A DNA stretch of 64,000 bases from Candidatus Litorirhabdus singularis (lineage in GTDB: Bacteria > Pseudomonadota > Gammaproteobacteria > Pseudomonadales > Halieaceae). Below, piece after piece: positions 49,699 through 64,000 of the stretch (the first letter of the stretch is position 1; the number at the start of each line of letters is the position of its first letter). Location: assembly GCF_026262625.1 (NCBI RefSeq), contig NZ_SHNN01000003.1:186001-250000 (forward strand), given 5' to 3'. The notes below the pieces were generated by a model. That model searched no databases, had not been told where the DNA came from, and was given only the letters and a program-made list of their open reading frames with translations. The translations under genes were made by a program, and so were the position numbers.

Positions 49699-51567
49699 AT
49701 GCGAATAATAGCCCCTACCGCCCTTAGCTTGCTCCTGTGCACCCCACTGCTGGTCAATGCCAGCGAATATTCACCCTATGTCGACGAAGACTTCCCTCGC
49801 AATCTGTACTGGGGCGATACTCACTTGCATAGCTCATTCAGTATGGACGCCAGCATCATGGGCAACGCCGCCCTGCCACCAGCGGCGGCATTCCAGTTTG
49901 CTCGCGGCGAAACGGTCACCGCCAATAACGGAATGCGGGTTCGCCTGCAGGTACCGCTGGATTTTCTGGTCGTAGCGGACCACGCTGAACACATGGGCAT
50001 TTTGCCCAAGTTGCGTGAGGGAGCAGCTGATATTCTTGCTGACCCCATCGGCCAGAGGCTTTACGAAACGCTGACCAACAACCCGGATGGCAGCAGTCTA
50101 TTAATGGGCGAGTTACTGAAATCGACCAGCGCCAATAGTCCCATCATTGCCAATGATGCTATCGAACGCAGCGTCTGGGAGGAATCAGCCAGCACCGCCG
50201 ATGCCTTCAACGATCCTGGCACATTTACCACGCTGATAGGCTACGAGTGGTCTTCGATGCCAGGCGCCGATAACCTCCACCGCGTTGTTGTATTTGCCGA
50301 TGCCGCCGACAAAGTCACGCAGATAAAACCGTTTTCTTCTTTTGACTCAGAGCAGCCAGAGAAGCTCTGGGCGTTTCTGGCGGACTACGAAGCGAAGACC
50401 GGCGGCCGCGCACTGGCCATCCCGCACAATAGCAATATCAGCAATGGCCGCATGTTTGCTGTGGAAGACTCTGATGGCCAGCCCTTTAATCGTGAATACG
50501 CCGTACAACGCATGCGCTGGGAACCGATTATTGAAGTCACGCAGATCAAAGGTGACGGCGAGGCCCACCCTTGGCTCTCGCCCGACGACGAATTTGCCAA
50601 CTTCGAAACCTGGGACTTTGGTAATTTTGGCGCCCTGGAAGGCGACAACAAAGAAAACTATATGCTCCAACATGAATACGCCCGCTCGGCGTTGAAACTG
50701 GGATTGCAGCAACAGGCATTACTGGGTGTCAATCCATTCAAGTTTGGCATGATCGGTAGCACCGATTCACACACGTCATTAGCTACCGCCGCTGAGGAGA
50801 ACTTCTTCGGCAAATCAAGCACGGTGGAGCCCGGCAGCAACCGCACTTATGGCAGCGCCAGTTCGGTCGCCAGTAAATCCGGTAACGTGATGTTCATGCC
50901 GTGGGAATACGCCGCCTCAGGCTATACCGGGGTGTGGGCCCGCGATAACACCCGCGAAGAACTGTTCGCAGCACTGCAACGCAAGGAAGTTTACGCAACT
51001 ACCGGCTCACGCATTGCGGTGCGCCTGTTCGGCGGCTGGCAGTTCAGCGCTGCTGACATCAACCGTCCCGACCGCACCCGCCACGGCTATGCCAGTGGGG
51101 TACCCATGGGGCAGGACCTGCCGACGGCCAGCGGCGAGCAACCCGGATTTATGGTGTACGCCAGTAAAGACCCCAACGGCGCCAACCTCGACCGCATTCA
51201 GATCGTCAAGGGATGGCTGGATACTGAGGGTGAGCTGCACGAGCAGGTCTACAATGTAGCGGCCTCAGATCAGCGTCGCATCCGCAGGAATAAGGTAAAA
51301 CCACTTAAGTCTACGGTGGATGCAGCCAGCTATAGCAATAGCATTGGCGAAGCGACGCTGGCCGCGTTCTGGGAAGATCCCGACTTTGAACTTGAGCAAA
51401 GCGCCTTCTACTATGCCAGAGTCATAGAAATACCCACACCACGCTGGCCGGCCTATGATGCCGCGCGTCTGGGCGCAAAAATTGATGCCGCAGTGCCACT
51501 GGAAGTACAGGATCGAGCCTATACTTCACCTATCTGGTATACCCCCGCGACTGACACACGGCGTTAA
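49699..51567 (+). CDS. DUF3604 exported protein (PHP-like), paralog 2
   Basis: A 622-residue protein with signal peptide MRIIAPTALSLLLCTPLLVNA. GDTHLHSSFSMDAS opens the metal-binding region; DFLVVADHAEHMG, AIPHNSNISNGRM and GMIGSTDSHTS are further conserved blocks. It is a clear paralog of 31724-33634 but lacks most of that protein's extra cysteines. It is divergent from the FAD/cytochrome pair and is followed after 13 bp by a SnoaL-like gene. A periplasmic metallohydrolase role is inferred from the fold. Confidence 0.9.
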   Translation: MRIIAPTALSLLLCTPLLVNASEYSPYVDEDFPRNLYWGDTHLHSSFSMDASIMGNAALPPAAAFQFARGETVTANNGMRVRLQVPLDFLVVADHAEHMGILPKLREGAADILADPIGQRLYETLTNNPDGSSLLMGELLKSTSANSPIIANDAIERSVWEESASTADAFNDPGTFTTLIGYEWSSMPGADNLHRVVVFADAADKVTQIKPFSSFDSEQPEKLWAFLADYEAKTGGRALAIPHNSNISNGRMFAVEDSDGQPFNREYAVQRMRWEPIIEVTQIKGDGEAHPWLSPDDEFANFETWDFGNFGALEGDNKENYMLQHEYARSALKLGLQQQALLGVNPFKFGMIGSTDSHTSLATAAEENFFGKSSTVEPGSNRTYGSASSVASKSGNVMFMPWEYAASGYTGVWARDNTREELFAALQRKEVYATTGSRIAVRLFGGWQFSAADINRPDRTRHGYASGVPMGQDLPTASGEQPGFMVYASKDPNGANLDRIQIVKGWLDTEGELHEQVYNVAASDQRRIRRNKVKPLKSTVDAASYSNSIGEATLAAFWEDPDFELEQSAFYYARVIEIPTPRWPAYDAARLGAKIDAAVPLEVQDRAYTSPIWYTPATDTRR

Positions 51568-53985: not shown

Positions 53986-56900
53986 ATGCGCGCTAAGCAG
54001 CAGATTTTTCGTGTCCGACGCGAATACAACCAATGGGTGAACAACCAGACCCTGGAAGACTACGCCCTGCGTTTTACCGCCAAGAGCGCTCGCCGCTGGA
54101 GTAGCTGGCAAGTCTCGATGACCGCACTGGGCGCAACGGCTTTCCTGGCTCTGGAAGCCATCGGCGGAGCAATTACACTCAACTACGGTTTTACCAACGC
54201 TGTCTATGCCATGCTGGCAGTGGGCGCAGTCCTGTTTGTAATTGGCCTCCCTATCAGCTATCACGCTGCGCGACAGGGTCTCGACATTGACCTGCTGACC
54301 CGTGGCGCCGGATTCGGCTACTTGGGATCCACCGTCACCTCGCTGATATATGCGTCTTTTACCTTCATCTTCTTCGCCATTGAAGCAGCCATTCTCGCCA
54401 TGGCGCTCAAGGCTTTGCTTGGCATTCCCCTCTACATTGGCTACGTACTGTGCTCAGTGGCTGTGATTCCGATTGTGACCCATGGCATCACGGCCATTAG
54501 CCGCTTTCAGGTTGGCACCCAAGGCCTGTGGCTGGCACTACAGCTACTGGCCTTGCTGGCAATTGCGATGTTCGAGCTGTCCCGAGTAGAAGACTGGACC
54601 CAGTTTCAAGGTCTTCAACCAGCACCAGAGCCAGGCTTCAACCTGCTATTATTTGGCGCTGCTTCTGCCGTGTTGTTTGCCTTTGTCGCCCAGATTGGGG
54701 AGCAGGTGGACTACCTGCGTTTTCTACCGGCCCGGGAAAGTACCGGCAAACTGGCTTGGTGGAGTGCCATGATCTGTGCCGGCCCAGGCTGGATTTTTAT
54801 CGGCATCATCAAGATGCTGATTGGATCTTTTCTGGCATGGTTAGCCTTCAGCGGAGGTAAGCCTTTCGCAGTAGCTACCGACCCCACCTACATGTATCAA
54901 ACGGTCTACGGGTACTTCACCCAGTCTCCGACGCTGGCTCTGATACTGGCGGGCACCATGGTCATCATTTCGCAGATGAAGATTAACGTTACCAATGCGT
55001 ACGCCGGATCCATCGCCTGGTCGAACTTTTTCTCGAGACTGACTCACAGCCACCCTGGTCGAGTAGTGTGGCTGGTATTCAATGTACTCATTGCACTGCT
55101 GCTGATGGAGCTGGGCATTTATCAGGTACTTGAGAATATACTCAGCGTCTTCGCTATCGTCGCCGTCAGCTGGCTGGGCACTATTGCCGTTGACCTCAGC
55201 ATCAATCTTCAGCTCGGGCTAAGACCACAAAAAATTGAGTTCAAACGTGCCCATCTGTACGACGTCAATCCGGTCGGAGTAGGCTCGATGCTAGGCGCGG
55301 CGTTTGTAGGATTGGTCTGCTACAGCGGCTGGCTGGGCCTGGAGGCACAGGCCCTGGCACATTTCTTGACACTGATTACCACGGTCATACTTGCCCCCGC
55401 TATCGCCTGGCTGACCGGAGGCCGCTATTACATTGCGCGTGAATCAATTGAGCTGGCGGAGCTTGAAGAGCCCTGCCGATGCTGCATCTGTGAAAACCGT
55501 TTCGAATCCGAAGACATGAGCTATTGTCCGGCCTACGCAGGAGCCATTTGTTCACTATGCTGCTCACTGGACAGTCGCTGTATGGACTCCTGCAAACCCG
55601 GGGCGCGCTTCTCAAGGCAGATCGTTCATTGGCTGGGGAAAATCATGCCGGAGAAAGTTGTTGCCCTGGTCGACTCACGCATGGGTCACTATCTGGCAAT
55701 TCTCAGTTGCATTGCCGGTATCAATGCAGCACTTTTAACCCTGGTGTACTACCACATTGATCCTAGCGAAGCGGCAGTTGCGGAGCTGCTAAGCGAGATG
55801 CTGTGGACTCTGTTTTTCGTGTTCATGATCATCGCTGGCGTTATCGCCTGGTTATTCCTGTTGTCTCAGGAAAGCCGTCTGGTTGCAGAGGAGGAGTCAC
55901 AGCGCCAAACCCAATTGCTTATGCGCGAGATACAGGCTCACGGTGCTACGGACCGTGAGCTGCAAAATGCCAAGGAGAATGCCGAAGCGGCCAACCTGGC
56001 CAAGAGCCGCTATCTGGGAGGTATCAGCCACGAGCTGCGCACACCGCTGCAATCCATTCTTGGCTACGCGCAGATTCTGGGTCGTGATCCGGAGATTCCG
56101 GATGCACGCCGCGACTCTATCGATATCATCAGGCGCAGCGGTGAATACCTCAACGACCTGATTGATGGGCTACTGGAAATTTCACGTATCGAAGCCGGAC
56201 GCCTGGATATCCAGAGAGAGCAGGTTGACCTGCATACGCTACTGGCAGAGCTGGTCGATATGTTCAGGCAACAGGCCAACGCCAAGTCAATCGATTTCAA
56301 TTATCGCTGTTCGCCTGCGTTGCCACGCTTTATCAATAGCGATGAAAAACGACTGCGGCAGATTCTTATAAACCTACTGAGCAACGCCATCAAATTCACT
56401 GACACAGGCAGTGTCAGCTTTGATATTAAATATCGCAGCCATGTTGCGGAGTTTATTGTCGAGGATAGTGGCCGCGGCATCGCCAGCGCCGACCGCGACC
56501 GGATTTTCCAACCGTTTGAACGGGTACACCGCAGCGGCGCGCCTTACACCCCAGGTACCGGGCTCGGCCTGACCATCGTGCGACTGCTGTCGGAGATGAT
56601 GGGCGGTGATGTCAGCCTCAACAGCCAGCCAGGTGTAGGCACTCGCTTTGTCTTGCAGATGATGCTGAGCCGTATCGATCAACCCAGCCTGCCAGCACCG
56701 CCCAAGCGTCCGGTCATCGGCTACCATGGTGCTCGGCAACACGTCATGGTCGTCGATGATGAGCCACACCATCGCCAAATACTGGAGCAGTTACTGACAC
56801 CGCTAGGCTTCAATGTGCAAGAGGCTGCTGACGCAGCAGCCTGTCTGTCAGGTCGCAAAGACTGCCAGCCGGATCTATACCTACTGGATATCGCTATGCC

Positions 56901-57378
56901 CGGAACCGATGGTCTCGGTCTGGCAAAAATACTGCGCTCCTCTGGCGATAAAGCCGCCATTATCATGATATCGGGTAATGCACACCGCCGCCGCGAGATC
57001 ATCAACAGCAATTCCATGACAGAGGAAGCCGAGCGAGTTTACCACGATGACTTTATGACCAAACCCATACGGCTCGATGCGCTGTTGGCGCGCATTGGCA
57101 AACTGCTGCAGATAAAATGGGTGTATGGGGCAGTCGACAACAGCGCGCAGACGCCCGCTGTGCTAGACACGGACTCCGTTCACATTCCGGCGTCACACCC
57201 CAGCATAGTGCAGCTCAAAACCTACGCAGAACTGGGTTACCTCAAGGGGGTTCGCGAACAACTGACTGAACTGGCGGAACACGGAACTATCGAAAAACAC
57301 GCTATCGCGCATATGCAGCAGCTGGCACGCGATGCACAACTGGAGAAAATGGTGGAATTTTTGGAACGCTCAGCATGA
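53986..57378 (+). CDS. NCS1 permease-histidine kinase-receiver fusion sensor
   Basis: An 1130-residue hybrid sensor. Residues 1-480 are a full-length permease-like domain with about 12 membrane helices, similar to NCS1 cytosine/allantoin/hydantoin permeases. Residues 497-536 are Cys-rich (C497, C499, C500, C502, C514, C522, C525, C526, C532, C536), a likely metal-binding module. Two more helices follow (about 567-590, 606-626), a coiled linker, the HisKA box with H682, the ATPase domain with N-box near 796-800 and a DSGRG box, a receiver with D968 and K1026, and a helical tail. Like CbrA, it joins a transporter to a kinase. The gene converges with the urease operon and overlaps a response regulator gene. 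The ligand is probably a nitrogen compound (inference). The start has a weak ribosome site. Confidence 0.93.
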   Translation: MRAKQQIFRVRREYNQWVNNQTLEDYALRFTAKSARRWSSWQVSMTALGATAFLALEAIGGAITLNYGFTNAVYAMLAVGAVLFVIGLPISYHAARQGLDIDLLTRGAGFGYLGSTVTSLIYASFTFIFFAIEAAILAMALKALLGIPLYIGYVLCSVAVIPIVTHGITAISRFQVGTQGLWLALQLLALLAIAMFELSRVEDWTQFQGLQPAPEPGFNLLLFGAASAVLFAFVAQIGEQVDYLRFLPARESTGKLAWWSAMICAGPGWIFIGIIKMLIGSFLAWLAFSGGKPFAVATDPTYMYQTVYGYFTQSPTLALILAGTMVIISQMKINVTNAYAGSIAWSNFFSRLTHSHPGRVVWLVFNVLIALLLMELGIYQVLENILSVFAIVAVSWLGTIAVDLSINLQLGLRPQKIEFKRAHLYDVNPVGVGSMLGAAFVGLVCYSGWLGLEAQALAHFLTLITTVILAPAIAWLTGGRYYIARESIELAELEEPCRCCICENRFESEDMSYCPAYAGAICSLCCSLDSRCMDSCKPGARFSRQIVHWLGKIMPEKVVALVDSRMGHYLAILSCIAGINAALLTLVYYHIDPSEAAVAELLSEMLWTLFFVFMIIAGVIAWLFLLSQESRLVAEEESQRQTQLLMREIQAHGATDRELQNAKENAEAANLAKSRYLGGISHELRTPLQSILGYAQILGRDPEIPDARRDSIDIIRRSGEYLNDLIDGLLEISRIEAGRLDIQREQVDLHTLLAELVDMFRQQANAKSIDFNYRCSPALPRFINSDEKRLRQILINLLSNAIKFTDTGSVSFDIKYRSHVAEFIVEDSGRGIASADRDRIFQPFERVHRSGAPYTPGTGLGLTIVRLLSEMMGGDVSLNSQPGVGTRFVLQMMLSRIDQPSLPAPPKRPVIGYHGARQHVMVVDDEPHHRQILEQLLTPLGFNVQEAADAAACLSGRKDCQPDLYLLDIAMPGTDGLGLAKILRSSGDKAAIIMISGNAHRRREIINSNSMTEEAERVYHDDFMTKPIRLDALLARIGKLLQIKWVYGAVDNSAQTPAVLDTDSVHIPASHPSIVQLKTYAELGYLKGVREQLTELAEHGTIEKHAIAHMQQLARDAQLEKMVEFLERSA

Positions 57379-58286
57379 ATATAGCAACAAAAGACAGTGG
57401 GATAGTGCTGATCGCCGATGACTCGCCTGAAACTCTGGGTATGCTAAACGAGGCACTGGAACAGTCCGGGTATATGGTTCTGGTTGCTCTGGAAGGCCGC
57501 CAGGCGCTTACTATCGCCGAGAAAATCACCCCCGACATCATACTACTGGACGCGATCATGCCCAAGTTAGATGGCTTCGAAACCTGCCGCAAGCTGCAGA
57601 CCATACCCCAACTGGCAGAGGTTCCGGTGATTTTCATGACCGGGCTAAACGACACCGAAAGTATCGTCAGAGCGCTCGACTGCGGGGCTGTCGACTACCT
57701 ACAGAAACCCATTAACCCAGACGAGCTGATCGCACGCATGCGAGTACATCGACATAACGCCAGCAAGGCTACCAGTGCGCGCAGTGCACTGGACAGCACC
57801 GGCCAACATCTGTTCACCATCAATGTCGAAGGCCGCATCGTCTGGGCCACACCACAGACCATCGCCTTGTTCAATATCGCCAGAGTCAGCGACACCTGGA
57901 AGGATCAGGAGCTACCCAGCCAACTGTTGCAATGGCTTAATCACCAGCCACGGCCCAATCAATCGATCGAACTTAGCGGCCTGGAGCACCCACTGCAGGT
58001 CAGGTATCTCGAACGTTCTGACCACGGTGAGGTTTTACTGAAGCTGCTGGATGGAGCCGTGCCATCGGGGCCCGAGCGTCTGCGCAAAGCTCTACCGCTG
58101 ACCGGCCGCGAATCAGAAGTGCTGTACTGGATAGGCAATGGCAAAACCAATCGGGAAATTGCTCTGATACTCGACAACAGTCCGCGCACTATCAACAAGC
58201 ATCTGGAACAGGTGTTCCGCAAACTTGAGGTCAGCAATCGCACTTCAGCCGCAGCCATCGCCCTGAAAATTATGGCAACAGAGTGA
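57375..58286 (+). CDS. LuxR-family response regulator
   Basis: A 303-residue regulator: receiver domain with D15, D16, phosphoacceptor D59 and K111, a middle segment of about 100 residues with PAS-like GRIVWATPQTIALFN, and a C-terminal LuxR/GerE helix-turn-helix (LTGRESEVLYWIGNGKTNREIALIL...NKHLEQVFRKLEV) near 236-300. ATGA overlap with the hybrid kinase shows coupled translation, so it is the likely partner. Target genes are not shown; the convergent ure genes or uptake genes are candidates. Confidence 0.94.
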   Translation: MNIATKDSGIVLIADDSPETLGMLNEALEQSGYMVLVALEGRQALTIAEKITPDIILLDAIMPKLDGFETCRKLQTIPQLAEVPVIFMTGLNDTESIVRALDCGAVDYLQKPINPDELIARMRVHRHNASKATSARSALDSTGQHLFTINVEGRIVWATPQTIALFNIARVSDTWKDQELPSQLLQWLNHQPRPNQSIELSGLEHPLQVRYLERSDHGEVLLKLLDGAVPSGPERLRKALPLTGRESEVLYWIGNGKTNREIALILDNSPRTINKHLEQVFRKLEVSNRTSAAAIALKIMATE

Positions 58287-58300
58287 ACCCGAAACGCGCC

Positions 58301-58936
58301 TCAGGCGCTAGCGTGTGCCGCTGGCGCAGCTAGCATTCCCTCGCGGATGATAAAGTCGATGATAGTGGTCAGGCCATCTCCACTTTTGAGATTGGAAAAC
58401 ACAAATGGCCGCTCCTTACGCATCAAGCGAGCGTCGCGGTCCATGACCTCCAGCGAGGCTCCCACCAATGGCGCTAAATCGGTTTTGTTAATCACCAGCA
58501 GGTCAGAGCGGGTAATACCCGGCCCGCCTTTTCGCGGAATCTTGTCACCCGCACTGACATCAATTACATAAATAGTCAGGTCAGATAGCTCCGGGCTGAA
58601 AGTCGCACTGAGATTGTCGCCGCCACTTTCCACAAACACCACGTCCAGATCACCGTGGCGAGCCATCAGCTCATCAATCGCCGCCAGATTCATAGAAGCA
58701 TCTTCACGAATAGCCGTATGCGGACAACCGCCGGTTTCAACACCAATAATACGATCGGGACTAAGCGCACCATGGCGAGTCAGGAACTGCGCATCCTCCT
58801 GTGTATAAATATCATTAGTGACAACCGCTATCTGGTACTCATCGCGCAACACGCTGCACAGGGCTTTCAGCAACGCCGTCTTGCCGGAGCCCACTGGGCC
58901 ACCAACACCTACTCGTAAAGTTTGTTTCGTTTTCAT
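58301..58936 (-). CDS. ureG: urease accessory GTPase UreG
   Basis: A 211-residue SIMIBI GTPase that powers nickel delivery to urease. The P-loop GPVGSGKT is at 13-20; nickel-binding and switch region [19 protein letters not shown] follows, with Cys-Pro-His. G-motif NKTDLAP is present. It is the last gene of the urease operon, 39 bp after ureF, and its 3' end is 15 bp from the convergent response regulator gene. Confidence 0.97.
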
Positions 58937-58975
58937 CTATCTTCTCCTCAGATTTCTGTGCGGCGATTGCGCGAT

Positions 58976-59647
58976 TCAACTGCGAAACAACCTTGAATAT
59001 TGGGTTTCATGCCAGACGCTGGCGAGCGCCAGACCGGGCAGCGAGGCACCGATATCCCGATCCTCTAAAACCATGGCAGCATCAACCGCTGCTGGCAGTT
59101 GTTCTGACAGCTGACCCAGCAGTATTTGAGCGGCACTCTGTCCCAACGGTACCAGTTTTGTTGCCGCCGCTACTTGATTCTCCAGCCATGCCCAGGCGTA
59201 GCCATGACAAGCGGCTCGTGGGCTTATCGACCACGCATCACAGGCTATCGCAAAACCAGCGGCAAATACCGGCGTCTGTAAAGGTGGTTGAGGCAACTCA
59301 AGCTGATTAAGCAAACGCACCAGGGCCTCGCCCATCGCCGTATCAGTTAACCGCAGCTCGGCGGTTTCACGACACGCCAACAAATAGTCATTCCAGTACT
59401 GCACGGCGCTGATATCACGTTCTTCCTGTGCTCGTTGCAAGCGCAAAAGCAGCGGCAAGTCCACTCGGGCGAGGCTGTAATTTAGCTGATCCAGCAACCA
59501 ATCGTGAGTCGCTTCCCGGTCTTGCAGCCAACCCTGCTCAACCGCATTTTCAAGTCCCTGCGAAAAGGCGTAACCACCCACCGGCAGCGCTACGCTACTC
59601 AATTGCAGCAGCCGCAGCAGAGCGCTGTCAGTCGTGGTGATGGCCAT
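58976..59647 (-). CDS. ureF: urease accessory protein UreF
   Basis: A 223-residue helical accessory protein that gates UreG in the activation complex. Family marks are LPVGGYAFSQGLENAVEQG near the N-terminus and the LVPLGQSAAQILL region. AGGAG precedes the ATG at 59647; the longer frame reaches further into ureE. It overlaps ureE by 20 bp, so coupled translation is likely. Confidence 0.95.
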   Translation of the reverse strand: MAITTTDSALLRLLQLSSVALPVGGYAFSQGLENAVEQGWLQDREATHDWLLDQLNYSLARVDLPLLLRLQRAQEERDISAVQYWNDYLLACRETAELRLTDTAMGEALVRLLNQLELPQPPLQTPVFAAGFAIACDAWSISPRAACHGYAWAWLENQVAAATKLVPLGQSAAQILLGQLSEQLPAAVDAAMVLEDRDIGASLPGLALASVWHETQYSRLFRS

Positions 59648-60095
59648 GACCAGCTCCTGCATAGGCGCCGGCTTCGGGCACAAACACTAACTCCTCGTGA
59701 CTGACCTGCAAACCAAGTTGCCGCAACATTTGCTCCAGCACCGGATCTGGCGTCATTAGCAGCCAGCGCTCACCCACCTGAATTTTGACATGGCGATTAC
59801 CCAGGTGATAACAGGCACGGGCAAAAATCTGCCAATCACTGCAGCTACCGCGTACCACCATTTCGCTAGCGCCTGCGACTTCAAACAAGCGACCACACTC
59901 ACTTTCCAGAAGCTCACCCAGAGCCAGGGTTTTCCCGCGTTCCAAAAAGATGCGCAGTTCGGCACCAGTCTCTGTCCGCACCTTGAGCCGACCACGCTCG
60001 CGCTGCAGGTGATCAAGTACTACCCGATCGTGAACTGTCGCGCCTGGCTCGGCCGGGCGGCGACGTTGAATTTCAAAGCTTTGCGTAATGTTCAT
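59628..60095 (-). CDS. ureE: urease nickel metallochaperone UreE
   Basis: A 155-residue nickel chaperone, with an N-terminal peptide-binding domain (RRRPAEPGATVHDRVVLDH) and a C-terminal metal-binding domain (ACYHLGNRHVKIQVGERWLL). The His-rich tail is short (GAGHGHHHD), so it holds fewer nickel ions than the long-tailed forms. GTG at 60101 is an alternative start 6 bp upstream; neither has a good ribosome site, consistent with coupling to ureC. Confidence 0.95.
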   Translation of the reverse strand: MNITQSFEIQRRRPAEPGATVHDRVVLDHLQRERGRLKVRTETGAELRIFLERGKTLALGELLESECGRLFEVAGASEMVVRGSCSDWQIFARACYHLGNRHVKIQVGERWLLMTPDPVLEQMLRQLGLQVSHEELVFVPEAGAYAGAGHGHHHD

Positions 60096-60102
60096 AGGCA
60101 CG

Positions 60103-61806
60103 CTAAAACAAGCAGTAGAGCTGCGCCAACGGCAGCACTTGCGCAGGTTCGCAGGTTAACAGTTCACCGTCAGCGCGAACCTCATAGGTCTGTGAGTCGA
60201 CGGTGATACTGGGCTTCCAGGCATTATGCACCATGTCGGTCTTACCGATAGTGCGGGTATTGCGGCAGGCTACCAAACGCCGGCCCAGCCCTAGCTTAGC
60301 GGCTAGATCGGTTTCCAGCGCTGCTGCTGAAGTGAAAGTCACAGCAGTGGCGCGGGGAGCTTCACCAAAAGCACCGAACATCATCCGGTAGTGCACCGGT
60401 TGCGGTGTAGGAATCGATGCATTGGGATCGCCCATGGGGGCGGCAGCGATGAAACCACCTTTGATAATCAGGGCCGGCTTGATAGCAAAAAATGCCGGTT
60501 TCCAAAGCACAATATCCGCCAGCTTGCCTACTTCAATCGACCCGACCTCATGGTCAATACCATGAGCAATGGCTGGATTAATCGTATACTTGGCCACGTA
60601 ACGGCGCGCCCTGAAATTATCCATTTGCGGAGTATCTTGCTCCAGCGCACCACGCTGCTGTTTCATCTTGTGCGCTGTTTGCCAGGTTCGGGTAATCACC
60701 TCACCGACTCGGCCCATCGCCTGCGAGTCAGAAGCGATCATACTGAATGCTCCAAGGTCATGCAGAATATCCTCGGCGGCGATGGTCTCTTTGCGTATGC
60801 GCGAATCCGCAAACGCAACATCCTCAGGAATCGAGGAATCCAGATGGTGACATACCATCAGCATATCCAGATGCTCATCCACGGTATTGACCGTGTAAGG
60901 ACGCGTCGGGTTGGTCGACGAAGGCAGCACATTTTCCTCGGCGCAGGCTTTGATAATATCCGGCGCATGGCCACCCCCGGCGCCCTCCGTATGGTAAGTG
61001 TGTATGGTGCGACCTTTGAACGCAGCAAGCGTGTCATCAACAAAGCCGGACTCGTTGAGAGTATCGGTATGAATCGCTACTTGAACATCAAATTCCTCCG
61101 CCACGCTTAGGCAGGTATCGATAGAAGCCGGCGTGGTGCCCCAGTCTTCATGCAGTTTCAGACCACAGGCACCGGCGAGAAGTTGCTCTTCCAGCGGCAG
61201 CGGTTGACTCGCATTACCCTTGCCCAGAAAGCCAAGATTCATCGGCATAGAGTCTGTCGCCTGCAGCATGCGCGCTATGTTCCATGGACCCGGCGTACAG
61301 GTGGTAGCGTTGGTGCCAGTGGCCGGCCCGGTGCCTCCGCCGAGCATGGTAGTAATACCGCTCATAAGCGCCTCTTCAATCTGCTGTGGGCAGATAAAGT
61401 GAATGTGGGCATCGATACCGCCAGCGGTCAGTATCTGGCCCTCACCGGCAATGACCTCGGTCCCGGCACCAATCAAGATATCAACGCCATCCTGAATATC
61501 AGGATTGCCCGCCTTGCCTATGGCTGCTATGCGGCCGTTCTTGATACCTACATCCGCCTTCACAATGCCCCAGTGATCAAGGATTAGCGCATTGGTAATC
61601 ACAGTGTCGACGGTGTCGGCACAGCTCGCCTGCCCCTGGCCCATGCCATCACGAATCACCTTACCGCCGCCAAATTTTACTTCATCACCATAGCGGGTGA
61701 AGTCACTCTCCACCTGAATAAACAGATCAGTATCAGCCAAACGTACCCGGTCGCCTGTGGTCGGACCAAACATAGAGGCGTAGGAACGTCGATCCAATGT
61801 AGTCAT
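60103..61806 (-). CDS. ureC: urease alpha subunit UreC
   Basis: The 567-residue catalytic subunit, hydrolysing urea to ammonia and carbamate. All nickel-site residues are present at the Klebsiella positions: H134, H136, carbamylated K217, H246, H272 and D360, with H320 and C319 of the mobile flap. The family length is normal. It overlaps ureB by 4 bp and precedes ureE by 8 bp. Confidence 0.99.
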
Positions 61807-62141
61807 TGTGAATCTCCGGATACTGCCGTCGTCACGGGCAGTGGCCCCATAATTTCACCGCGAAAACCAAACACCCGGCGGTCCCCCGCATAGGCGACCA
61901 GCTCCACTTCACGGTCTTGGCCCGGCTCAAATCGCACGGCGGTGCCGGAAGCAATATTCAAACGAAACCCAAGAGCCTGCTCGCGATCGAATATCAGCGC
62001 GGGATTGGTTTCATAAAAATGATAATGTGAGCCGACCTGCACTGGTCTGTCACCGCTATTCTCGACACGCAGTGTTAGCGTCTCGCGACCCTCATTGAGT
62101 GTGATATCGCCTTCAGCGACCAGAATTTCACCCGGTATCAT
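61803..62141 (-). CDS. ureB: urease beta subunit UreB
   Basis: A 112-residue urease subunit with the family's start [19 protein letters not shown] and [10 protein letters not shown] block. It is separate from ureA, as in most bacteria, and overlaps ureC by 4 bp (ATGA). It contributes to the (alpha-beta-gamma)3 holoenzyme. Confidence 0.98.
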
Positions 62142-62156
62142 GCTGTCCCTCGCGTT

Positions 62157-62459
62157 TCAGTTAATTGGATTGTGGACAGTGACCAACTTGGTCCCGTCAG
62201 GAAAAGTTGCCTCAACCTGAACTTCAGCAATCAAGTCGGGAACCGCATCCAGCACCTGCTCGGCACTGAGAATGGTCCGACCATAGCTCATCAGTTCGGC
62301 AACGGTCTTGCCGTCACGGGCACCTTCCATTATTTCCAGCGTCAGGTACGCAACCGCTTCCGGGTAGTTCAGGCGCAAGCCACGCTGAAGACGTCGCTCT
62401 GCCAACAAGCCTGCGGTTACCACCAGCAGCTTGTCCTTTTCTCTTGGCAATAGTTCCAT
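62157..62459 (-). CDS. ureA: urease gamma subunit UreA
   Basis: A 100-residue gamma subunit with [17 protein letters not shown] start and the typical [21 protein letters not shown] ending. It lies 15 bp before ureB and 34 bp after ureD. Confidence 0.98.
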
Positions 62460-62493
62460 AGTTCATTCCGTATTCGCTGCAAGTTTGCAGATA

Positions 62494-63366
62494 TTATGTA
62501 TACCAGATACGCGGCACACTGGCAGGCCGTTGCATAACCAGCGGACGCAGGACCTGCCACCAGTCGGTAAAAAGCTTGCGCGCCTGCGCCGCGCTGCTAC
62601 CGAGGTAGCGACCAAGCACGAAGTCTCCGTTAAGGCCCAAAGCTGCCTCGCGCTGCAGTCCAGCCGCGCCAATCATCGCACGTAGAGTGTCCAGGGTCAG
62701 CGTAGACGGCGCCGTCACCGGACCAATCAAGAAAAAACCGGCCACCGGCTGGCCTTGCAACCCCACTTTGGAATCCAGCAGAGGCAAGTCCGCGGCAGTC
62801 AACTTCAGCTGCTCGATAAACACCGGACGCCCGTCAAGAAAGACCGCATAGCGCTGCCTGAAACTGCCATCATTAAAGCGAGAGGCGCTGGCCGGTAATC
62901 CGAAGCAGGTAATTTCCCAAGCCCCGAAGTGCGCGCCCGGCGCCAAGTTAACAGTTGTCTCAAGCTCCACTCTGGCGCCGTCATAGACAATACTCTCTTG
63001 CGGAAACCACTCGACCGCGGCGTCAGTGTCCACTTCAATATGTACGTTCTGAACCTGAGCATCACCACCTTGGCGCGCTCTATACATGCGCCCAGCCCCG
63101 GGCGTTGTCAGCAAAGCCGCACTGGCTGCGCCTGCATGAATACTGATCTCAAGCCGATCCCCGGAAACCAGTCCACCCGGAGGATGCAGCGGATAGACAT
63201 GGGCCCAATTCGGGCCCTCTGGATAAAAGGGCTTTTGTACGTACAGCGGACCGACGTGGTGGCAACTACTCAAACGACTTCCGCGGTCGGTGCGGGTAAA
63301 CTTCAGCGCCAGTTCTGCATGCCAGTGTTCCTGATGAATCTTATCCAGAGCGGATTCAGCCCTCAT
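62494..63366 (-). CDS. ureD: urease accessory protein UreD
   Basis: A 290-residue accessory protein (UreH/UreD), the scaffold that binds apo-urease with UreF and UreG. Family blocks are KPFYPEG, VYPLHPPGGLVSGDRL, TTPGAGRMYR and WFPQESIVYDGA. It overlaps the small exported-protein gene by 11 bp, so the operon begins at or before that gene. Confidence 0.96.
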   Translation of the reverse strand: MRAESALDKIHQEHWHAELALKFTRTDRGSRLSSCHHVGPLYVQKPFYPEGPNWAHVYPLHPPGGLVSGDRLEISIHAGAASAALLTTPGAGRMYRARQGGDAQVQNVHIEVDTDAAVEWFPQESIVYDGARVELETTVNLAPGAHFGAWEITCFGLPASASRFNDGSFRQRYAVFLDGRPVFIEQLKLTAADLPLLDSKVGLQGQPVAGFFLIGPVTAPSTLTLDTLRAMIGAAGLQREAALGLNGDFVLGRYLGSSAAQARKLFTDWWQVLRPLVMQRPASVPRIWYT

Positions 63367-63653: not shown

Positions 63654-64000
63654 CTAGACCGCCAAGTGGCGATTTACCAGTTCATCGCTTAGTAAATCCA
63701 TGTTGCCAGATGCTACCACACGGCCCTTCTCCATTAACCGAAACTCCTGCCCGACGCGACGTGCGAAGGCGAGTTTTTGCTCTACGAGTATTACAGTAAG
63801 GCCCTGCTCCTTATTCAGCTTCAGCACCACATCGCCGATCTGACGCACGATATTGGGCTGGATACCCTCATTGGGTTCATCGAGAATCAAAACCTGCGGA
63901 TCAAGCACCAAGGCGCGACCGATAGCCAGTTGCTGCTGCTGGCCACCTGACAGGTCGCCGCCACGGCGACTGAGCATATCGTTGAGCACCGGGAACAGCT
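63654..64000 (-). CDS. urtE: urea ABC transporter ATP-binding subunit UrtE (C-terminal part)
   Basis: C-terminal ~114 residues of an ABC ATPase; the rest lies beyond the window. ABC signature LSGGQQQQLAIGRAL and Walker B LILDEPNEGIQPNIV, with the EPNEGIQP wording specific to UrtE, the branched-chain-type urea importer. The frame continues upstream through an internal valine GTG, so no start is in view. The urt genes precede the ure operon on the same strand, with about 100 bp to the small exported-protein gene. Confidence 0.92.
   Translation of the reverse strand, partial: LFPVLNDMLSRRGGDLSGGQQQQLAIGRALVLDPQVLILDEPNEGIQPNIVRQIGDVVLKLNKEQGLTVILVEQKLAFARRVGQEFRLMEKGRVVASGNMDLLSDELVNRHLAV

Follow-up and report, generated by a model that had tools for sequence, protein, structure and literature searches.

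An NCS1-type permease–histidine kinase fusion as a putative receptor for urea and short-chain amides

Introduction

Some bacterial histidine kinases are built on transporters. In the SLC5-STAC kinases CbrA, CrbS and RpuS, a cytoplasmic linker domain joins a transporter domain to a histidine kinase. CbrA, termed a transceptor, also transports (PMC13022988), and CrbS is a hybrid kinase whose partner, a LuxR-type regulator, works through an imperfect inverted repeat (PMC5715377; papers are cited throughout from the parts of their text available to us). In the ammonium sensor kinase Ks-Amt5, a transporter has been repurposed as a receptor and has lost transport (PMC5764959); it joins an Amt domain to a kinase of DHp and CA domains only, without STAC or receiver. 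Here we analyze a gene pair in a 64,000-nucleotide stretch of Candidatus Litorirhabdus singularis (contig NZ_SHNN01000003.1, positions 186,001–250,000; ‘the window’), which encodes a permease–hybrid kinase fusion and a LuxR-type response regulator next to urease genes. The fusion shares the general plan of the SLC5-STAC kinases but has an NCS1-type permease where they have SLC5, a Cys-rich module where they have STAC, and a genetic linkage to urea and amide genes; the palindrome associated with it, ATACGTCA-NN-TGACGTAT, resembles neither the ACTU matches listed for the CrbS system nor the direct repeat of RpuR (PMC9100948). Judging from sequence comparisons, we think it likely that the pair comprises an NCS1-derived urea/short-chain-amide receptor kinase and a regulator that activates urea and amide genes.

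The genes that surround this kinase family are familiar from other work. The fmdCABDEF and urtABCDE-fmdA clusters of Methylophilus are induced by formamide and urea (PMC10781810), and the same genes lie beside many homologs of the fusion; the available part of that paper mentions no kinase for these clusters, whereas we propose a two-component system and an operator. In Ectopseudomonas guguanensis G3, a hybrid kinase and a LuxR-type regulator adjoin a urtABCDE operon (PMC13296017). Likened by description and not by sequence, they probably belong to the family described here, although the available account reports no transporter domain, Cys module or operator. The AmiC/AmiR system regulates an amidase operon in response to a short-chain amide (PMC13209695), but it has neither a transporter fold nor a kinase: AmiC binds the ligand and regulates negatively, and AmiR is an antiterminator that binds RNA. 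The same paper proposes formamide import as the function of urt genes that neighbor formamidase.

Results

Architecture of the gene pair

One open reading frame (ORF) carries the permease domain, the Cys module, HisKA, HATPase_c and a receiver (Table 1), the last three scoring above their Pfam cut-offs, as expected of a hybrid histidine kinase. The next ORF overlaps it by 4 bp and combines a receiver with a GerE helix-turn-helix (HTH) domain, the arrangement of NarL/FixJ (LuxR-type) response regulators. An earlier reading of the sequence alone (the sequence-only reading) had predicted both the fusion and its coupled regulator, and both were borne out. Pfam finds no domain in residues 1–584 of the fusion at E 0.1, no SSF (SLC5) or Amt match anywhere in it and, above cut-off, no domain between the permease and HisKA, where the Cys module lies; no STAC profile was compared.

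A gap of 14 bp separates the regulator from ureG on the other strand, and the pair is therefore convergent with the ureG end of ureDABCEFG. The same strand continues beyond ureD from urtE to urtA and then to a porin gene past the window end, so that only the 3′ part of this porin-urtABCDE-ureDABCEFG cluster lies in the window. The pair thus faces the urease operon, as the sequence-only reading put it, in the sense of convergent 3′ ends; the likely control point is the promoter at the far end of the cluster, outside the window.

Gene neighborhood

We tallied gene context in 90 loci, comprising our own locus, nine named loci and all sample matches except two kinases cut by contig ends (G137 and G085). 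L012 (on the contig of L081) and L018 (unfused) were excluded; L113 (a distant permease, 27% identity) and L104 (unfused) were retained, and one G348 kinase appears in two overlapping regions (L087 and L088). At least two urt genes are present in 63 of the 90 loci, formamidase in 44 and at least two urease genes in 17; 74 loci have urt, formamidase or urease genes by these measures. In 57 loci, a gene of the cluster diverges from the kinase at a distance of up to 1.6 kb (urtA in 49, ureA in six, fmdA in one and an unfused permease in one). The common layout places the kinase divergent from urtABCDE-fmdA-fmdB, at times with an aliphatic amidase. On a Klebsiella plasmid that we read, the kinase, a regulator homolog and the palindrome lie beside urt and an AmiF-type formamidase.

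Unfused relatives of the permease occur in similar surroundings. In G362, an unfused paralog with eight Cys (L093:11593–13443, +) diverges from the fused kinase and is followed by formamidase and amidase; it occupies the place where urt genes usually precede formamidase, and the 20 kb fetched contain no urt genes. This candidate urea/amide transporter seems to do the importer's work. Other unfused permeases follow ureG in G378 and in Klebsiella pneumoniae (L018:9947–11554), where the annotation is ‘cytosine permease’ and the context makes a urea or amide permease more likely. The sequence-only reading had named cytosine, hydantoin, allantoin or urea-like solutes as ligands and inferred control of urea use. 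No homolog of Escherichia coli CodA, HyuA, AllB or AllC was found in the 90 loci (E 1e-8, 40% length), and the first three are thus not supported, whereas the link to urea is upheld by the 74 loci and by a palindrome before the porin-urt-ure cluster. Gene context points to urea and short-chain amides as the predicted ligands.

A palindrome in divergent promoters

A Gibbs sampler with a palindrome constraint was run on 48 divergent regions (54 regions shorter than 900 bp minus near-copies). It returned ATACGTCA-NN-TGACGTAT with total scores of 999 (width 18) and 921 (width 16), compared with 421–446 for block-shuffled controls; set against the best-of-three score of 999, the shuffles reached 428–446. 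One of three seeds per width gave the high score. Sites of at least 18 bits are present in 37 of the 48 training regions, and eight regions stay below 14 bits. The 1.72 Mb of the 89 loci scanned, in which the training regions are contained, yield 68 such sites, against 0–2 in five Markov controls; none falls within a gene matched by the reference set, and most lie beside urtA, fmdA or the kinase. Outside the training set are 21 of these sites in 18 loci. Seven of these loci nearly duplicate training regions or are closely related to them, and the other eleven do not (L089, L094, L096, L127, L139, L153, L154, L157, L013, L014 and L015). Records with the palindrome come from gamma-, alpha- and betaproteobacteria and include the Klebsiella plasmid, and we infer that it is an operator bound by the LuxR-type regulator.

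Our own genome, which was not used for training, contains the site CTACGTCAAATGACGTAG (24.9 bits; contig C14:256659–256676) 103 bp upstream of the porin start. It is the only exact TACGTCANNTGACGTA in 4.83 Mb and the only one of 20 degenerate matches in which both half-sites are exact; the degenerate pattern itself is not enriched (20 matches, versus 34 when the pattern is reversed). The region upstream of this genome's own kinase yielded no site. A 19.2-bit match within an ORF of the window (50496–50513, in 49699–51567) was rejected as compatible with chance: among 50 Markov replicates of our own 76 kb, three gave maxima of at least 18.6 bits, one of 21.8.

The palindrome co-occurs with the kinase. 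In the organism's taxonomic family, urtA loci score 15.9–24.9 bits in all six genomes with the kinase and at most 11.8 bits in the 16 genomes without it. At a cut-off of 15 bits, fixed after these scores had been seen, three of six class-sample urtA loci with the kinase have a site, versus none of 23 without it (21 genomes). Pooled, the counts are 9 of 12 versus 0 of 39 (Fisher p 7e-8, uncorrected for phylogeny), with three of the 39 kinase-free loci having only 0, 7 and 128 bp upstream; for loci with at least 1250 bp upstream they are 9 of 10 versus 0 of 35 (p 1e-8, also uncorrected).

The transporter domain

The unfused K. pneumoniae permease is 39% identical to the fusion over residues 19–529 and passes the Pfam NCS1 cut-off (37.7 versus 23.5 bits). 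In profile–profile comparison, the family matches an alignment of CodB and eight other NCS1-like proteins with a probability of 99.4 and E 5.7e-22 over 377 columns (profile columns 8–414). The window protein had served to find two rows of that alignment (L009 and L010); once they are removed, the probability is 99.1 and E 1.5e-18 over 406 columns (9–458). Comparison with SLC5 (hhalign) gave a probability of 0.1 and E 0.63, although the SLC5 alignment consisted of three proteins from our own genome and canonical NCS1 also failed to match it (0.8). NCS1 and SLC5 were the transporter families compared. These results support placing the domain with NCS1 and not SLC5. The NCS1 assignment of the sequence-only reading thus stands by profile comparison but not by single-family models, as Pfam PF02133 (Transp_cyt_pur) gives no match and the NCBIfam cytosine permease model (E 3e-7, 29.5 bits) falls far under its cut-off of 326.

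Besides the profile match to NCS1 transporters, the class of CodB and Mhp1, the family has equivalents of CodB Arg216 and Tyr285, R245 and Y339; roles for these residues and for Gln105 and Trp108 are described for CodB (PMC9379551). All 92 scored sequences have identical E133, Q236, E239, Q240, D242, R245, K332, N334, N337 and Y339, and T126 is conserved in 90 of 92. The invariant membrane-domain residues are the same in fused and unfused proteins and in urease and formamidase contexts. The family differs from CodB and Mhp1 in its added kinase and Cys module, in Thr126 and Phe129, which align with Gln105 and Trp108, and in the invariant Lys332. This Lys, near the sodium site of transmembrane helix 8 (TM8), aligns with T278 by hhalign and with N275 by MAFFT, so that its assignment to the Na2 site varies with the aligner; its presence hints, but does not prove, that the domain does without sodium.

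Distribution and the Cys module

Counting our own genome, the fusion family has matches in 8 of 140 genomes from the taxonomic family, 18 of 369 in the class sample and 52 of 398 in the phylum sample; a few are unfused or cut by contig ends. Conservation across these samples, the lack of which would have spoken against the sequence-only reading, indicates that the fusion is not a chance join. Plasmid records with a match number 532, of which 342 are from Klebsiella, and at least one Klebsiella record is the unfused chromosomal-type permease; viral contigs scanned with two peptide patterns yielded no relative. Among 91 relative ORFs, 82 are frames of at least 1100 residues and three are unfused. 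Downstream of the kinase, 82 of 88 loci have a regulator match. Several variants occur, with Pfam run on eight relatives. L141, L149 and L022 are shorter (894–913 residues); of these, L141 and L022 were run in Pfam and have no receiver. L103 has PAS domains before the kinase. In genome G236 (L102:8356–12030, −), the permease–Cys cassette is fused to PAS-GGDEF-EAL, a cyclic-di-GMP enzyme, with no kinase and no urea genes in the 20 kb fetched. As a separate observation, G348 (L087 and L088) has two complete kinase–regulator pairs about 10 kb apart, of which only one adjoins urt-fmd genes; the second may have another ligand.

The ‘10-Cys module’ of the sequence-only reading is real (Cys 497, 499, 500, 502, 514, 522, 525, 526, 532 and 536), with eight of the ten found family-wide. 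Their spacing, C-x2-C-x11-C-x7-C-x2-CC-x5-C-x3-C, is exact in 89 of 91 relatives' ORFs. Both ORFs that deviate are unfused permeases of urease operons, in which just two CxxC motifs are left; the third unfused permease (L093) keeps all eight. Because all three unfused permeases carry the module, two in reduced form, it is not peculiar to the kinase. We did not find that the module predates the fusion: a tree computed without L152 and the truncated L087 copy nests the three unfused rows within fused ones and groups them with a Shimodaira–Hasegawa-like approximate likelihood ratio test (SH-aLRT) value of 99, but its rooting depends on CodB, which has a branch of 10. Among 83 proteins of more than 1080 residues, one of them the window protein, the Cys module is better conserved than the other segments examined: its mean identity to the window protein is 0.70, versus 0.59 in the membrane part, 0.53 in HisKA-HATPase and 0.34 in the two extra helices. 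A search based on the module found matches in 16 of 274 class genomes, with frame lengths those of the permease family and the G137 frame cut by a contig end.

The structure prediction that had been suggested for this region, run on the Cys module alone, gave one acceptable model of five (predicted local distance difference test (pLDDT) score 75.9), the other four scoring 44.7–54.5. None of 185 Foldseek matches to the model reached E 0.001; the top ones, below significance, are mostly RING, PHD and FYVE zinc fingers. With a single acceptable model and no significant match, likeness to a treble clef or RING is a hint only. The simplest reading is that the module is probably a structural zinc site or finger.

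Table 1. Features of the kinase–regulator locus, in window coordinates
Feature	Position	Strand	Basis
NCS1-type permease/Cys module/hybrid histidine kinase fusion, 1130 aa	53986..57378	+	ATG ORF, Pfam
NCS1-like permease domain, about residues 1–488 (proposed urea/short-chain-amide receptor)	53986..55449	+	profile–profile match; 39% identity to K. pneumoniae unfused permease
Cys module, residues 497–537, 8 family-wide Cys	55474..55596	+	spacing and conservation across relatives
Two extra hydrophobic helices, about residues 568–628, between Cys module and kinase	55687..55869	+	read by eye from sequence
HisKA, residues 672–738, with SHELRTP	55999..56199	+	Pfam
HATPase_c, residues 786–892	56341..56661	+	Pfam
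Receiver (Response_reg), residues 920–1037	56743..57096	+	Pfam
Cognate response regulator, 303 aa, ATG: REC 11–122 and GerE (LuxR) HTH 241–296	57375..58286	+	Pfam
ureDABCEFG, proposed target genes	58301..63366	-	ORFs
urtE 3′ part (urea ABC transporter ATPase), cut at window edge	63654..63989	-	

Two further features of the cluster deserve mention. The porin gene at its head, 5′ of urtA (L023:6400–7557, −), shows weak ExtI likeness (79 bits, cut-off 150) and is a possible counterpart of the amide/urea porin FmdC. A match to the Rfam family 5_ureB_sRNA (RF02514; 103 bits) lies antisense to ureC (window 61371–61653, +); it probably mirrors conservation of the urease coding sequence, not a genuine antisense RNA.

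Discussion

We propose that the pair is a two-component system with a transporter-fold receptor. The permease domain would bind urea or a similar short-chain amide, such as formamide or acetamide, by recognizing its carbamoyl/amide group. The resulting conformational change could reach the HisKA kinase by way of the Cys module, which we infer to be cytoplasmic, and the two extra membrane helices. Phosphotransfer to the LuxR-type regulator would follow, with the internal receiver acting as an intermediate or modulator. Once phosphorylated, the regulator is predicted to bind the palindrome upstream of the porin gene and to activate, rather than repress, urea uptake and hydrolysis, presumably from a single transcript running from the porin gene to ureG. 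Architecture, NCS1 kinship, conservation, gene context and the palindrome with its co-occurrence are computational results, whereas the ligand and this direction of signaling are part of the proposal.

Several observations weigh against this proposal. First, 16 of the 90 loci have too few urea or amide genes. Seven of these have explanations: the permease of L113 is distant; three loci (L094, L143 and L152) lie on short contigs; only urtA is present in L015 and L154; and the urtA of L081 is on another contig. L016, L020, L088, L090, L092, L095, L097, L102 and L103 show no urea or amide link in the stretch fetched. Second, loci in which urease genes diverge from the kinase have weak palindromes (L100, −2.7; L124, −1.6; L132, 12.2; L122, 13.7; L134, 17.2; L129, 18.3 bits). 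Third, the 15-bit cut-off was set after the fact, and three of the six class-sample kinase genomes (G151, G169 and G131) have no site at the scored urtA. In G169, the scored urtA copy is not the kinase-side one, whose region reaches 14.9 bits; G151 has 497 bp upstream of urtA and a cut kinase contig, and a 29.9-bit site precedes its kinase; and the G131 kinase has no urea neighbors in the stretch fetched. Moreover, the distance from urtA is 1288–1514 bp at all nine positive sites. As about 1500 bp were scanned, these sites are close to the limit, and a more distant one in a kinase-free locus would be missed. Fourth, the domain escapes the PF02133 model, hhalign and MAFFT differ in TM8 register, and an AlphaFold2 model of residues 1–634 from six sequences reached pLDDT 38 and was not used, which leaves the proposed pocket as a reading of the alignment. 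Finally, our literature searches turned up no experimental work on the ligand or on transport, phosphorylation or DNA binding.

The alternative that survives best, although we regard it as rather unlikely, is that the receptor senses short-chain amides such as formamide and acetamide rather than urea, which would be a secondary or gratuitous ligand in urease contexts. Formamidase is indeed a more frequent neighbor than urease, an aliphatic amidase is a neighbor in L021, and second palindromes lie 71–114 bp from the fmdA match in six loci (L105, L107, L110, L114, L115 and L116). By contrast, the window and its near relatives L083, L084 and L085 adjoin urease and urt genes, with no formamidase in the stretches fetched, and the invariant membrane-domain residues do not change with context.

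Improbable, in our view, is a second alternative, in which the permease domain responds not to one ligand but to transport flux or the nitrogen state, with the Cys module contributing metal or redox input, and the palindrome-bearing operon is one of several targets. The high conservation of the Cys module fits such a role, as do the nine loci without a urea or amide link despite more than 12 kb fetched, and the GGDEF-EAL and PAS-kinase outputs in G236, which have no urea neighbor. However, because the module is reduced to two CxxC in two unfused permeases, it need not be a sensor, and the strong palindromes are mostly located by urtA, fmdA or the kinase.

Slightly more improbable still is that the palindrome belongs to another regulator and accompanies the kinase through shared ancestry of whole clusters. 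The co-occurrence counts take no account of phylogeny, which favors this view, and binding by the regulator is a prediction. Against it, sites persist 165–204 bp from the urtA match where the kinase or regulator is 1.7–6.4 kb away (L013, L015, L139, L153, L154 and L157), at distances from the kinase itself of 2–6 kb in the last four; in G018 and G137, the urtA site and the kinase are on different contigs; and the kinase-free genomes G038 and G045, with urtA 82% identical, have no site in the scanned stretch. Sensing of cytosine, hydantoin or allantoin, with urease nearby by accident, is very improbable, since NCS1 kinship and the sub-threshold cytosine permease match are offset by the finding of no CodA, HyuA, AllB or AllC homolog in the 90 loci and by the replacement of CodB Gln105 and Trp108.

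More broadly, the urea/short-chain-amide receptor kinase that we favor may be one use of a portable cassette. We advance only tentatively the idea that the NCS1 domain and Cys module form a receptor for urea and short-chain amides that still transports; that it has been placed in hybrid, plain and PAS kinases and in a GGDEF-EAL protein, while remaining a stand-alone permease in some urease and formamidase operons; and that it signals through a dedicated operator. It would then be a candidate for a direct receptor of urea and would represent a new transceptor class in bacteria.

In the open-license literature, seen mostly as titles and the beginnings of abstracts, we identified no NCS1–kinase fusion and no operator of this sequence. 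The transporter-fused kinases found there have SLC5 or Amt domains. With NCS1 and the conserved Cys module, the number of transporter folds rises to three and that of linker types to two; we regard the fusion as a transceptor kinase with a new fold, linker and regulon. As we found in the same literature no histidine-kinase system described as a sensor of urea or short-chain amides, the system could explain induction by urea and formamide in many Proteobacteria, and its putative operator makes the regulon predictable and testable. A urt-AmiF cluster has been proposed to aid K. pneumoniae in the urinary tract, with no regulator named in the available part of the paper (PMC13060141). The Klebsiella plasmid that we read carries the kinase and the palindrome beside a cluster of this type.

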